In this document: one piece after another, positions 1 through 48,956 of the stretch | Position numbering within the stretch: position 1 is the stretch's first letter | Layout of the letters: each line of letters starts with the position of its first letter | Source: Tolypothrix brevis GSE-NOS-MK-07-07A | Lineage (GTDB): Bacteria; Cyanobacteriota; Cyanobacteriia; Cyanobacteriales; Nostocaceae | DNA length: 64,000 nt | Reading direction: 5' to 3' | NCBI GenBank assembly: GCA_019358985.1 | Contig: JAHHIJ010000002.1 | Coordinates: forward strand, 1 to 64,000 | Notes under the pieces: model-generated | The model's database searches: none | What the model was told of the DNA's origin: nothing | What the model saw: only the letters and a program-made list of their open reading frames with translations | Translations under genes and position numbers: made by a program

Positions 1-520
1 ACGACGATTGAAATGTTTTTATTCATGTTAATTAGGAAGAAATGATATTAGATCATTTCCGATAAATCACACATCTTGTAAAGACGTTCCGCCGGAACGT
101 CTCTACGACGATTGAAATGTTTTTATTCATGTTAATTAGGAAGAAATGATATTAGATCATTTCCGATAAATCACACATCTTGTAAAGACGTTCCGCCGGA
201 ACGTCTCTACGACGATTGAAATGTTTTTATTAATGTTAATTAGGAAGACGTGATATTATATCATTTCCGACAAATCGCACATCTTATAAAGACGTTCCGG
301 TGGAACGTCTCTACGACGGTTGAAATGTTTTTATTCATGTTAATTAGGAAGAAATGATATTAGATCATTTCCGATAAATCACACATCTTGTAAAGACGTT
401 CCGCCGGAACGTCTCTACGACGATTGAAATGTTTTTATTAATGTTAATTAGGAAGACGTGATATTATATCATTTCCGACAAATCGCACATCTTATAAAGA
501 CGTTCCGGTGGAACGTCTCT
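1..520. repeat. 104-bp tandem repeat array, 5 copies
   Basis: Five head-to-tail copies start at 1, 105, 209, 313 and 417, each exactly 104 bp. Each ends in a perfect hairpin of the GACGTTCC/GGAACGTC type. Two sequence versions exist and are ordered A, A, B, A, B; B differs at matching sites, including GGTGG for GCCGG in the hairpin loop. The window edge cuts the array, so more copies may lie upstream. It stops 7 bp before the modBC start codon and therefore forms its leader. No reading frame is evident. Confidence 0.95.
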
Positions 521-35603: not shown

Positions 35604-35830
35604 AAGTTTTTTGGACAGAAACAGCCGTAGAAAACCTATCTGCAATTTATACTTACATTGCCCAGAATTCACCTCGGTACGCAACCAGGATTATTGACCG
35701 TATAACCAAACGTTCCCAGCAGCTTGCGAATTTCCCTGTATCTGGTCGAATTGTACCAGAGTTTGAAACAGAGCAAATTCGGGAAGTCATTGAAGGTTCA
35801 TATTTAATCTGGCGAGAGTCTTTGAACTAG
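35600..35830 (+). pseudogene. ParE/RelE-type toxin, C-terminally truncated
   Basis: 76 residues matching the first three quarters of a ParE toxin (VFWTETAVENLSAIYTYIAQ, RSQQLANFPVSGRIVPEF, IREVIEGSYLIW). Intact family members usually continue about 20 residues with the last beta strands. Here the frame runs into a 42-bp tandem repeat, reads RESLN and stops at TAG in the first, variant repeat unit. The end of the toxin is not found after the repeat. Loss of the C-terminal strand should inactivate it (inference). Confidence 0.8.
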
Positions 35831-36064
35831 ATTGGAGAGTCTTTGATACTCGTTGATGAGTCTTTGAAGGAGATTGGAGAGTCTTTGATACTCGTTGATG
35901 AGTCTTTGAAGGAGATTGGAGAGTCTTTGATACTCGTCGATGAGTCTTTGAAGGAGATTGGAGAGTCTTTGATACTCGTCGATGAGTCTTTGAAGGAGAT
36001 TGGAGAGTCTTTGATACTCGTCGATGAGTCTTTGAAGGAGATTGGAGAGTCTTTGATACTCGTT
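35816..36064. repeat. 42-bp tandem repeat, about 5.9 copies
   Basis: Units start at 35816, 35858, 35900, 35942, 35984 and 36026. Each unit is itself two 21-bp halves both beginning GAGTCTTTGA. The first unit has ACTA for AGGA, giving the toxin stop. Later units differ only at GTT/GTC. In another frame it would encode a 14-residue repeat, but I see no evidence of a gene. 36065-36202 holds only the leader of the next gene. Confidence 0.95.
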
Positions 36065-44903: not shown

Positions 44904-47900
44904 ATGATGAAGAAAAAATTTGCAACCATCGACGGCAACGAGGCTGTTGCCCGTGTTGCTTATCGGTTAAATGAAGTAATTGCTATTTATCCCATTACCC
45001 CCTCTTCAGCAATGGGTGAATGGGCAGATGCATGGTCTTCTGAAAGCCGCCGTAATTTGTGGGGTACTGTGCCAAGCGTGATAGTAATGCAAAGTGAAGG
45101 TGGAGCCGCTGCTGCCGTACATGGAGCATTACAAACAGGTTCCCTGACTACCACCTTCACGGCATCTCAGGGATTATTGTTGATGATTCCCAACCTCTAC
45201 AAAATCGCTGGGGAACTTACTAGCGCGGTGATTCACGTTGCGGCACGTTCTTTGGCTACCCACGCATTATCAATTTTTGGCGACCAAAGTGATGTCATGG
45301 CAGCGCGTGCTACTGGCTTTGGGATGCTGTGTTCTGCCTCAGTGCAGGAAAGTCAAGATTTTGCCCTGATTGCTCACGCTGCCACCTTAGAAGCGCGAGT
45401 GCCGTTTATGCACTTCTTCGACGGTTTCCGCACCTCTCATGAAGTGCAAAAAGTCGAATTGTTGGAAGACGAGGATTTGCGATCGCTTATTAACGATGAT
45501 CTCATATTCGCTCACCGCCATCGCTCTCTTACCCCAGATCGTCCAGTATTGCGAGGAACGGCTCAAAACCCGGATGTCTACTTTCAATCCCGCGAAGCCG
45601 CTAACTTATACTACAACGCTTGTCCAGATATTGTTCAGCGAATCATGGACAAATTAGGCGATCGCACTGGACGACATTACCAAATCTTTGAATATCATGG
45701 TGCAGTTGATGCAGAACGTGTCATTATACTTATGGGGTCCGGCTGTGAGACAGTACACGAAACCGTAGATTATCTGAACGCTGGTGGGGAAAAAGTCGGT
45801 GTCCTCAAAGTCAGATTATATCGCCCCTTTGACGCAACACGGTTTGTATCAGCCTTGCCGAAAAGTGTGAAAGCGATCGCAGTCCTCGACCGCACCAAAG
45901 AACCAGGTAGCGCCGGCGAACCGTTGTATCTTGATGTAGTTGCTGCTATTTATGAAGAATGGCGTCCCGTAGAGACGTTCCGGTGGAACGTCTCAGAGTC
46001 GTTCCACGGTCACGACTCTACCCCTATGCCCAAAATCATCGGTGGTCGTTACGGTCTTTCTTCTAAAGAATTTACCCCAGCGATGGTTAAAGGTGTTTTC
46101 GACAACCTTGCCCAACCACAACCGAAAAACCACTTTACCATCGGTATCAACGACGACGTAAGCCACACTTCCCTAAACTTTGACCCTAACTTCTCCACCG
46201 AAGCAGATAACGTCGTCCGAGCAATGTTCTACGGATTAGGTTCTGATGGCACAGTTGGTGCTAATAAAAACTCCATCAAGATTATTGGTGAACAAACAGA
46301 CAACAACGCTCAAGGCTACTTTGTCTACGACTCCAAAAAATCTGGCTCAATGACCGTTTCCCATCTACGCTTTGGTCAACAACTTATTCGCTCAACCTAC
46401 CTAATTGACAAAGCCAACTTTATCGGCTGCCATCACTGGGAATTCCTAGAGCGGGTAGATGTACTGAAAGCGGCTGCGTTTGGGGCAACTTTATTACTCA
46501 ACAGTCCTTATGATGCTGATATTGTCTGGGAACATCTCCCGGAAAAAGTACAGCAACAAATTATCGCCAAGCAACTTAAATTATACGTCATCAATGCGAC
46601 CGAAGTTGCCCGGAACAGCGGCATGGGCGGTAGAATTAACACTATTATGCAAGTGTGCTTCTTTGCCTTAGCAGGTGTTTTGCCACAAGAAGAAGCCATA
46701 ACCAAAATCAAGCAAGCAATTGAAAAAACCTACGGCAAAAAAGGCACAGAAGTCGTCCAGAAGAATCTGCAAGCTGTAGATCAGACGCTGGAGAATTTGC
46801 ATAAAGTCGATGTCGGAGATATTGACTCATCACTTTTGTACAGACGTTCCGACGGAACGTCTCTACCTGAATACAGACGTTCCGACGGAACGTCTCTACC
46901 TGAATACAGACGTTCCGACGGAACGTCTCTACCTTTGAATGATGCTCCCGAATTTGTGCAGTCAGTTTTAGGTAAAATAATGGCATGGGAAGGTGATGAT
47001 TTACCTGTAAGTGCGCTGCCTGTTGATGGGACTTTTCCTACCGGCACTGCTAAATGGGAAAAACGCAATATTGCTACAGAGATTCCCGTTTGGGATGCGG
47101 ATGTCTGCGTGCAGTGTGGCAAATGTATTATGGTTTGTCCTCATGGAGTCATTCGAGGCAAGGTTTATCAACCAGGGGAATTAATTAACGCACCGGCAAG
47201 CTTCAAGTCAATCGATGCCAAAGATAAAGACTTTGCTTGCTCAAAATTTACCATTCAGGTAGCCCCAGAAGACTGTACAGGCTGCGTTATCTGTGTAGAG
47301 ATTTGTCCGGCTAAAAATAAGTTAGAGCCGACGCGCAAGGCGATTAATATGGAAGCGCAGTTGCCTTTACGCGAGCAAGAGCGGGAAAACTGGAATTTCT
47401 TTCTCAGTTTACCAAATCCTGACCGCCGGGAATTAAAACTAAACCAGATTCGCCAACAGCAATTGCAAGAACCTTTATTTGAATTTTCTGGTGCTTGTGC
47501 TGGTTGTGGGGAGACACCTTATTTAAAATTATTAACACAACTGTTTGGCGATCGCTCTGTCATTGCCAATGCCACAGGTTGTTCGTCAATTTACGGGGGA
47601 AACCTTCCCACCACCCCTTGGACGACAAATGCTGAAGGAAGAGGTCCTGCTTGGTCGAATAGTCTTTTTGAAGACAACGCAGAATTCGGTCTTGGCTTTC
47701 GTCTTTCTCTAGACAAGCAAGCCGAATTTGCTGCCGAACTACTGCAACAATTAAGTGGTGAAATCGGCGATAATCTTGTTCAATCTATTCTCAACCAGAA
47801 GCAAAAATCTGAAGCGGATATTTGGGAACAACGCGAACAAGTAGCGCTGTTGAAACAAAGATTAGATGAAATCCAAGATTATAATTTAACCGCAGATGAA

Positions 47901-48743
47901 CGCAGATGGACGCAGATGGAAGAGAGAAGCATCAGCGTTAATCCGCGTTCATCTGATGAAATCCAAGATTATAATTTAACCGCAGATGAACGCAGATGGA
48001 CGCAGATGGAAGAGAGAAGCATCAGCGTTAATCCGCGTTCATCTGCGGTTAATAATCTTAAATCCCTAGCTGACTACTTGGTGAGAAAAAGCGTCTGGAT
48101 TGTTGGGGGTGATGGTTGGGCGTATGATATTGATTTTGGCGGATTGGATCATGTTCTTGCCACTGGTCGCAATGTCAACATTTTGGTCATGGATACCGAA
48201 GTTTATTCTAACACTGGCGGGCAATCTTCTAAAGCTACACCACGAGGAGCGATCGCTAAATTTGCCGCTAGTGGTAAGCCAGCACCGAAGAAAGATTTAG
48301 GCTTGATTGCCATGACTTATGGTAATGTCTACGTAGCGAGTGTAGCCCTTGGTGCGAGAGATGAACACACCCTCAAAGCATTTCTCGAAGCCGAAGCTTA
48401 TGAAGGACCATCCTTAATTATCGCTTACAGTCATTGCATCGCCCACGGCATCAACATGACCACGGCAATGAATCATCAAAAAGCTTTGGTAGAATCAGGA
48501 AGGTGGTTGCTGTATCGTTACAATCCCGAATTGCAGCAAGCGGGTAAAAATCCATTGCAATTGGATATGCGTCAGCCGAAGCAGCCGGTAGAAGAGTCAA
48601 TGTATCAAGAAAATCGCTTCAAGATGCTGACTAAGAGTAAACCCGAAGTTGCTAAACGTCTTTTAGAAGAAGCGCAAGCTGAAGTGGATGCGCGTTGGAA
48701 AATGTACGAGTATCTCGCTGCGCGTAATGTAGGAGAGGTCTAA
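44904..48743 (+). CDS. nifJ: Pyruvate:ferredoxin (flavodoxin) oxidoreductase
   Basis: 1279 residues, longer than the roughly 1200 usual for NifJ. It oxidises pyruvate to acetyl-CoA and passes electrons to ferredoxin or flavodoxin, for nitrogenase or fermentation. Seen: N-terminal GNEAVARVAYRLNEVIAIYP, two 4Fe-4S motifs CVQCGKCIMVCP (about 734) and CTGCVICVEICP, a further cluster ligand FSGACAGCGETPY, and TPP/Mg binding WIVGGDGWAYDIDFGGLDH. The excess length comes from three repeat-encoded insertions at about 355-373, 646-678 and 988-1047. None hits a cluster or TPP motif. AGGAG precedes the ATG by about 5 bp. The frame is intact, so the protein is probably functional. Confidence 0.95.
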   Translation: MMKKKFATIDGNEAVARVAYRLNEVIAIYPITPSSAMGEWADAWSSESRRNLWGTVPSVIVMQSEGGAAAAVHGALQTGSLTTTFTASQGLLLMIPNLYKIAGELTSAVIHVAARSLATHALSIFGDQSDVMAARATGFGMLCSASVQESQDFALIAHAATLEARVPFMHFFDGFRTSHEVQKVELLEDEDLRSLINDDLIFAHRHRSLTPDRPVLRGTAQNPDVYFQSREAANLYYNACPDIVQRIMDKLGDRTGRHYQIFEYHGAVDAERVIILMGSGCETVHETVDYLNAGGEKVGVLKVRLYRPFDATRFVSALPKSVKAIAVLDRTKEPGSAGEPLYLDVVAAIYEEWRPVETFRWNVSESFHGHDSTPMPKIIGGRYGLSSKEFTPAMVKGVFDNLAQPQPKNHFTIGINDDVSHTSLNFDPNFSTEADNVVRAMFYGLGSDGTVGANKNSIKIIGEQTDNNAQGYFVYDSKKSGSMTVSHLRFGQQLIRSTYLIDKANFIGCHHWEFLERVDVLKAAAFGATLLLNSPYDADIVWEHLPEKVQQQIIAKQLKLYVINATEVARNSGMGGRINTIMQVCFFALAGVLPQEEAITKIKQAIEKTYGKKGTEVVQKNLQAVDQTLENLHKVDVGDIDSSLLYRRSDGTSLPEYRRSDGTSLPEYRRSDGTSLPLNDAPEFVQSVLGKIMAWEGDDLPVSALPVDGTFPTGTAKWEKRNIATEIPVWDADVCVQCGKCIMVCPHGVIRGKVYQPGELINAPASFKSIDAKDKDFACSKFTIQVAPEDCTGCVICVEICPAKNKLEPTRKAINMEAQLPLREQERENWNFFLSLPNPDRRELKLNQIRQQQLQEPLFEFSGACAGCGETPYLKLLTQLFGDRSVIANATGCSSIYGGNLPTTPWTTNAEGRGPAWSNSLFEDNAEFGLGFRLSLDKQAEFAAELLQQLSGEIGDNLVQSILNQKQKSEADIWEQREQVALLKQRLDEIQDYNLTADERRWTQMEERSISVNPRSSDEIQDYNLTADERRWTQMEERSISVNPRSSAVNNLKSLADYLVRKSVWIVGGDGWAYDIDFGGLDHVLATGRNVNILVMDTEVYSNTGGQSSKATPRGAIAKFAASGKPAPKKDLGLIAMTYGNVYVASVALGARDEHTLKAFLEAEAYEGPSLIIAYSHCIAHGINMTTAMNHQKALVESGRWLLYRYNPELQQAGKNPLQLDMRQPKQPVEESMYQENRFKMLTKSKPEVAKRLLEEAQAEVDARWKMYEYLAARNVGEV
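45969..46021 (+). repeat. In-frame double hairpin in nifJ (site 1)
   Basis: Two successive palindromes, AGACGTTCCGGTGGAACGTC and AGTCGTTCCACGGTCACGAC, read as VETFRWNVSESFHGHDST between EEWRP and MPKIIGGRYG. Confidence 0.9.
46839..46937 (+). repeat. In-frame 33-bp tandem repeat x3 in nifJ (site 2)
   Basis: Three identical 33-bp units (the last diverges at its final bases), each a CAGACGTTCCGACGGAACGT hairpin plus CTCTACCTGAA. Each encodes the 11-mer YRRSDGTSLPE. Confidence 0.95.
47865..48054 (+). repeat. In-frame 90-bp tandem repeat x2 in nifJ (site 3)
   Basis: Units at 47865-47954 and 47955-48044, plus a trailing GCGGTTAAT. Each unit is an AACCGCAGATGAACGC... repeat closed by its complement GCGTTCATCTGCGGTT at the end of the array. 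Encodes two copies of a 30-residue peptide beginning DEIQDYNLTADERRWTQ. Confidence 0.95.
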
Positions 48744-48776
48744 AATCAGTCCCAAAAATCCTTAACTGAACCGTAT

Positions 48777-48956
48777 TAGACATCTCCCGAAAAGATGTAG
48801 AGACGTAGCACTGCTACGTCTAATCAAGGGTTTTGGGTAACGTATAGTTCATTACTGAACCGTATTAGACATCTCCCGAAAAGATGTAGAGACGTAGCAC
48901 TGCTACGTCTAATCAAGGGTTTTGGGTAACGCATAGTTCATTTCTGGAGATGTCTA
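48777..48956. mobile_element. Tandem MITE-A pair
   Basis: Copy 1 (48777-48865) has the left end TAGACATCTCC but no right end. Copy 2 (48866-48956) is complete, ending GGAGATGTCTA. The two are almost identical over an 89-bp period, so the pair arose by tandem duplication. Confidence 0.88.

Follow-up and report, generated by a model that had tools for sequence, protein, structure and literature searches.

The window analysed here is the 64,000-nucleotide (nt) stretch from positions 1 to 64,000 of contig JAHHIJ010000002.1 of Tolypothrix brevis GSE-NOS-MK-07-07A (assembly GCA_019358985.1, forward strand; this genome is G000 below). It includes nifJ, whose open reading frame (ORF) holds repeated DNA in frame at three sites. 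The repeats belong to dispersed families of this genome, and they lie between conserved blocks of the enzyme in linkers that vary strongly among relatives. Very probably, such dispersed repeats insert and expand freely and survive in genes only as in-frame fillings of flexible linkers.

In this explanation, short dispersed repeats would multiply in the genome, inserting and growing in tandem at many places with no strict regard to frame, and nearly all such events within genes would be lost. Persistence inside a gene would need a length that is a multiple of three, a unit that is free of stops in that frame, and a flexible linker between conserved blocks. Three such linkers may exist in NifJ and one in RecJ, refilled repeatedly across the Nostocaceae by each genome's own repeats, and the linker peptides, having no conserved sequence, would be by-products. 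Insertion presumably came first and selection followed; the linkers are probably disordered and surface-exposed, and the protein that is made probably contains the repeat peptides and works.

Three repeat sites in one intact reading frame

NifJ scores 1838.8 bits against the curated family model TIGR02176 (cut-off 911.35), which places it in that family, and its Pfam matches stand in the usual order: POR_N, PFOR_II, POR, EKR, Fer4 and TPP_enzyme_C. All repeats are inside this one stop-free ORF and in frame with it, at the coordinates that a sequence-only reading of the window had given before our analysis.

44904..48743, plus strand: nifJ, pyruvate:ferredoxin (flavodoxin) oxidoreductase, 1279 amino acids (aa), intact; identified by ORF, Pfam domain order and TIGR02176
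45969..46018, plus strand: site 1, a double hairpin made of a palindrome (45969-45994) and a diverged second palindrome (45996-46018) with a 24-bp step; aa 356-372
46839..46937, plus strand: site 2, three 33-bp units (YRRSDGTSLPE); aa 646-678
47865..48044, plus strand: site 3, two identical 90-bp units; aa 988-1047
47886..47955, plus strand: copy 1 of the dispersed element of site 3, positions 1-70 of 77, from the element search
47976..48052, plus strand: copy 2 of the same element, full 77 bp, used as the query of the element search

The double hairpin, the triplicate of 33 bp and the duplicate of 90 bp had all been described correctly in that reading. At site 2 the tandem repeat of 33 bp x 2.9 (46839-46934) has 100% matches, and the third unit, which extends to 46937, has 91% identity. 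The 90-bp unit of site 3 consists of part of the DEIQD flank and most of a 77-bp inverted-repeat element.

All three sites are outside the Pfam matches. Site 1 directly follows the PFOR_II match (to residue 355) and precedes POR, site 2 is between the POR match (to 629) and the EKR match (from 679), and site 3 is N-terminal of the TPP_enzyme_C match (from 1061). They also lie away from the invariant cysteines 735, 738, 741, 745, 791, 794, 797, 801, 865, 868, 893 and 1178, which we take to have roles in iron-sulphur (Fe-S) clusters. The earlier statement that the inserts avoid the Fe-S and thiamine pyrophosphate (TPP) motifs therefore holds. When NifJ was aligned to the solved structure 6cin, a pyruvate:ferredoxin oxidoreductase (PFOR), residues 636-674 and 949-1054 fell between aligned stretches, and site 1 corresponded to a gap within the first aligned stretch.

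A palindrome nearly confined to the genus

Sites 1 and 2 have a 25-nt stretch in common, 92% complementary, and share a palindrome that is found genome-wide. NifJ therefore carries two repeat families, and the proposal of three unrelated ones is withdrawn. The palindrome has a 29-nt consensus, GTAGAGACGTTCCGNCGGAACGTCTCTAC, and is nearly confined to the genus: its exact core occurs in 651 copies in G000, where the reversed control pattern occurs 0 times, and in 27, 161, 184 and 304 copies in four congeners, while 30 of 34 other relatives have none and the remaining four have 1-7. Palindromes and tandem arrays were further counted in an 848-kb sample of G000, in which genes were called as longest ORFs only. 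There, 111 of 129 palindromes were intergenic, 9 were at ORF edges or in short ORFs, and 9 were inside ORFs of at least 200 aa, although such ORFs make up 66% of the sample.

Where the palindrome is translated, it is read in three phases, giving VETFRWNVS at NifJ site 1, YRRSDGTSLP at site 2 and TDVPAERLYPN in RecJ. This speaks against a function of the peptide, which is not what is kept. The RecJ copies lie at the place given next.

L146:9356-11758 (G000 C32:73356-75761): recJ, in which eight 33-bp units of the palindrome stand in frame between the DHH and DHHA1 domains, 25 kb downstream of nifJ on the same contig

Several of these eight units have changed bases, and the congeners G003 and G004 have one unit each. 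Of 30 RecJ loci, 26 allowed the linker to be read, and in many of these it looked, as judged by eye, filled with repeats. Copies of the palindrome were also found in a protein resembling LpxB (22.7 bits against a cut-off of 22.6) and in a response regulator with DUF3685.

NifJ linkers across relatives

A total of 130 NifJ loci were examined (sets of 30, 20 and 80, with partly overlapping genomes), giving 127 full frames, 111 of them distinct. The regular-expression anchors missed some segments, and n is therefore given per segment out of 111. Linker lengths at sites 1 to 3 had standard deviations (SD) of 13.2, 7.7 and 11.5 aa (n = 103, 109 and 110), and core segments had SDs of 0.7, 1.3, 6.1 and 0.9 aa (n = 91, 111, 108 and 100); the value of 6.1 belongs to the Fe-S domain segment, the other three being 0.7-1.3. 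Internal direct or inverted repeats of 9 nt were present in 55/103, 49/109 and 74/110 of the linkers (45-67%) and in 4.7%, 7.6% and 6.3% of core windows of the same length. Added together, the three linkers of G000 measure 180 aa, compared with 104 aa for the medians added in the same way, and its open frame, counted from stop to stop, has 1282 codons against a median of 1221 in the 111 distinct frames. The protein is thus longer than usual, as had been noted, by about 60 residues and not by the 80 first estimated.

The linker peptides vary by species and include KDKEDKED, PPSPPSPPS, GGQGGQGG, NPKSKIQNLKS, TDAINRVS and RGSGRDKVPS, among others. In three other genomes we checked whether the filling recurs elsewhere in the same genome. 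ACAGACGCGATTAATCGCGTCT fills the nifJ linker of G001 (29 hits in that genome, both strands counted) and the recJ linker of G002 (10 hits in that genome), and AATCCAAAATC heptads are present in both the nifJ and the recJ linkers of G007 (75 hits in the genome, overlapping ones counted). Linker positions are common to the relatives and linker contents differ, so that the place is old and the content is not. One further locus, G018 C1:210387-213848, is a nifJ match with many stops and looks like a pseudogene.

The 77-bp element of site 3 is dispersed as well, with 79 matches in G000, many of them partial and many counted on both strands. Within the tree set of 101 NifJ sequences, which are those with all three linkers found, 7 from scattered lineages have the element at the same place. 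Its distribution takes 6 changes on the NifJ tree compared with 6.9 for shuffled labels, which indicates several gains or losses at a single position. In G034, which has two nifJ copies, the second one also matches the site-3 element (81%, 67 bp) where its third linker lies (G034 C1:2845645-2845711).

Could the inserts be ancient NifJ loops, inherited by descent and never inserted? The sequence-only reading had named identical peptides at the same sites in many genera as the mark of such loops. Part of this expectation is seen, since aligned relatives have a variable linker at all three places; the scattered site-3 carriers and the partial match in the second nifJ of G034 likewise agree with descent. 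The peptides themselves do not follow it: the palindrome shared by sites 1 and 2 hardly occurs outside the genus, site 1 of the congeners G001 and G002 is filled with different repeats and neither has the site-3 element, and the site-3 element of G000 is more similar to a copy from another part of the G000 genome (86%) than to those in the two G034 nifJ genes (81% and 74%). Descent of the inserts as old loops is therefore unlikely, and insertion of the genome's own repeats into old linkers remains our preferred explanation.

Recent copy-number change and coding constraint

In the congener G003, whose nifJ core has a synonymous divergence (dS) of 0.19 from that of G000, a single palindrome occupies site 1, a single unit site 2 and a single element site 3. 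In G004, the site-1 array is longer, advances in 21-bp steps and is interrupted where the contigs end, and site 2 holds a 42-codon unit in three copies (counted by eye) that takes in core codons. The single copies in G003 and the longer array in G004 indicate that tandem growth at the NifJ sites is recent in the genus; the view that sites 2 and 3 expanded in tandem and are still changing in length is thus supported by the comparison with G003. The nifJ of G004 is divided between two contigs (L047 and L048; C59 and C189), both ending in the site-1 array, and assemblies may therefore break at such repeats.

The exactness of the repeats and the split nifJ of G004 could be taken to mean that assembly created the tandem copies or that nifJ is a decaying pseudogene. 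We regard this as extremely improbable. The site-2 repeat is present in single copy at the same site in G002 and G003, as is a single site-1 palindrome in G003, and the arrays are short (96 and 180 bp). Moreover, the ratio of nonsynonymous to synonymous substitution (dN/dS) of the NifJ core is below 0.1 against each of three congeners (0.095, 0.089 and 0.080). By this measure the core is under purifying selection.

It was also considered that the inserts are adaptive, with mRNA hairpins or peptides that tune NifJ folding, stability or partner binding at domain boundaries. The position of the sites between conserved blocks would suit such a role, and RNA folding z-scores of the G000 nifJ linkers are low (-3.6, -4.9 and -9.3). 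However, z-scores below -2 were found in just 26/103, 14/109 and 16/110 linkers, G000 included, with medians of -0.6 to -0.2; strong folding thus occurs in a minority of relatives, and a conserved RNA hairpin at the linkers was rejected. The differences in linker peptides between species and the reading of one DNA palindrome in three phases also argue against adaptation, as does the higher dN/dS of the linkers (0.32-0.49, though on 86-87 poorly aligned codons). Taken together, we find an adaptive role quite unlikely.

Selection on frame or growth in steps of three

Tandem arrays with a period of at least 20 were sorted by their position in the 848-kb sample. Within robust ORFs 14 of 15 periods were divisible by three, against 23 of 46 in intergenic regions. 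When multiples of seven were excluded, the counts were 11/12 for coding and 9/27 for intergenic arrays (Fisher p 0.0012). The one exception among the coding arrays, C32:76086-76124, may, as judged by eye, precede the true ORF start. Two arrays outside genes provide a contrast to those in NifJ.

48765..48942, no strand assigned: 89 bp x2 duplication with another palindrome, GACGTAGC, beginning 21 bases after nifJ ends; its period is no multiple of three, and each of the six frames has stops
1..520, no strand assigned: 104 bp x5 intergenic array with the GACGTTCC palindrome; here too the period is no multiple of three and each of the six frames has stops

Another array of the window, at 35816-36063, has a 42-bp unit x5.9 and was called intergenic; one plus-strand frame is open across it (ESLKEIGESLILVD).

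An insertion or expansion mechanism that adds DNA in steps of three only would keep repeats in frame without selection. The steps of 24, 33 and 90 bp in NifJ and 33 bp in RecJ are all multiples of three, as any intact gene demands, and 33-bp steps recur at separate loci. As a strict rule such a mechanism is refuted by the 89 bp x2 and 104 bp x5 arrays, which show that expansion outside genes also takes other step sizes. Outside ORFs or at their edges, palindromes follow one another at steps of 59, 41 and 112 bp; these steps and the 29-nt length of the consensus element likewise speak against such a mechanism, and we hold it to be very improbable. The sequence-only reading had left the choice between a mechanism and strong selection; its second half is upheld by the core dN/dS (0.080-0.095) and by the 14/15 and 23/46 counts, and its first half, taken strictly, is not. 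Selection on frame explains most of the in-frame pattern.

On each strand of the consensus element, one frame contains TAG. Six palindromes in ORFs of at least 200 aa, at three loci, are read in the phase of the TAGA stop, and all carry TACA. Of 222 intergenic palindrome arms, 117 have TAGA, 67 TAAA and 15 TACA. These 15 come from four loci, three of which are arrays whose steps are close to 33, 39 and 42. As the TACA arms come from few loci and mostly from arrays, TACA may be a pre-existing or older sub-family; avoidance of stops was for this reason rejected as proof of selection after insertion and is kept as a hint only. One could go further and suppose that the repeats are shaped for life inside genes, multiple-of-three units and stop-free variants (TACAGACG replacing TAGAGACG) making interdomain linkers regular safe harbours, and that the site-3 element entered the same NifJ place in several lineages. 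We consider this doubtful. If true, entry at the same NifJ place in several lineages would point to target choice or extreme constraint.

Several observations weigh against the explanation by free insertion and selective survival in linkers. Site 1 may touch the end of PFOR_II, whose profile was matched to position 85 of 102, and site 3 may fall inside a larger TPP-binding domain, as TPP_enzyme_C was matched from position 46 of 151; with both profiles matched partially, a position between domains is strict for site 2 only. The AlphaFold model (residues 1-1200, alignment of 34 sequences) was poor, with a mean predicted local distance difference test score (pLDDT) of 45.5 and a predicted template modelling score (pTM) of 0.36; it is too poor to show loops, and the inserts were not placed from it. 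Many of the coding arrays counted are, by eye, ordinary protein repeats, TPR-like or coiled-coil, and not dispersed elements, so that the proportion of 14/15 shows a frame filter in general. A further 33 arrays, located in short ORFs or at the edges of ORFs and of ambiguous coding status, were set apart; 25 of their periods are divisible by three. Distinct intergenic palindrome spacings are multiples of three in 12 of 19 cases (p 0.007 against 1/3, the spacings not being independent); selection on the NifJ and RecJ genes does not explain this excess, which counts in favour of growth in steps of three. Copy numbers in the arrays could be an assembly effect. Finally, G003, with 184 palindromes, gave no match to a REP-associated transposase in an assembly that is 54% complete (REP, repetitive extragenic palindrome).

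This last point concerns how the palindrome is moved. The ORF C14:39821-40483 of G000 matches NF047646, a REP-associated tyrosine transposase (RAYT), with E 9.1e-18 and 64.5 bits, below the cut-off of 80; no Pfam family was matched in a full-length scan of it. The ORF (L159/L160) is located amid six GACGTTCC palindromes, one of them inside the ORF beside a VETLHQ-type in-frame array, and is a candidate mobiliser. REP-associated transposase matches were obtained in 22 of 24 genomes, including genomes without the palindrome, and a palindrome was present in the flank of one of the six Y1_Tnp loci fetched. As transposases also occur without the palindrome, and none was matched in G003, the link is weak, and such a transposase may move the palindrome.

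Relation to known repeat systems

The more than 100 NifJ variants form a natural repeated insertion experiment on one enzyme, mapping the places at which a large iron-sulphur enzyme tolerates additional sequence and those at which it does not. Within one genus, the linker sequence of core enzymes can be turned over by dispersed repeats. This has consequences for annotating and aligning cyanobacterial proteins and for predicting their structures, and the neutrality of linker inserts becomes directly testable.

For Nostoc and its relatives, Elhai and colleagues in 2008 and Mazel and colleagues in 1990 reportedly treated small dispersed repeats and heptanucleotide short tandemly repeated repeats. 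These are similar to ours in being short dispersed repeats in heterocystous cyanobacteria. Palindromic elements of Rickettsia are said to have been described by Ogata and colleagues in 2000. According to two later papers (PMC2229807, PMC10969869), these are mobile palindromes translated in frame within conserved enzymes, and a guanylate kinase with such an element was reported to be active. In-frame insertion in conserved enzyme genes is what we find, at the sequence level, for NifJ and RecJ. The Rickettsia elements are 105-146 bp long, whereas ours are 29 nt (sites 1 and 2, growing in tandem) and 77 bp (site 3).

A close parallel is provided by the GTAG and CGTC REPs of Di Nocera et al. 2013 (PMC3733652), which are short palindromes, mostly intergenic, with some in frame in genes, DNA repair genes included; our palindrome is like them in each of these respects. 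There, intragenic REP clusters code for 43-82 aa, recB of two Xanthomonas carries different REPs at about the same site, and the authors suggest that REPs inserted into flexible linkers or loops may be neutral. REPs are described as RAYT-associated, and REP families are mentioned in filamentous cyanobacteria. By size and copy number our palindrome resembles a GTAG REP, being a palindrome of 20-40 bp in high copy and mostly intergenic. It differs in its tag, which is unpaired in GTAG REPs: here GTAG at one end of the consensus pairs with CTAC at the other, and the fourth base of the arm is G in 55% of arms.

Among the matches listed, no paper on repeat-filled NifJ or RecJ linkers in cyanobacteria was found by title or abstract. 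The repeats of nifJ and recJ are a variant of a known phenomenon, that of in-frame REPs and Rickettsia palindromic elements. Unlike the GTAG and CGTC REPs as described by Di Nocera et al., they show tandem growth between congeners, and unrelated repeats (palindromes, heptads and the 77-bp element) re-use the same NifJ and RecJ linkers across a bacterial family; this repeated re-use over a cyanobacterial family is seemingly new among the matches listed.

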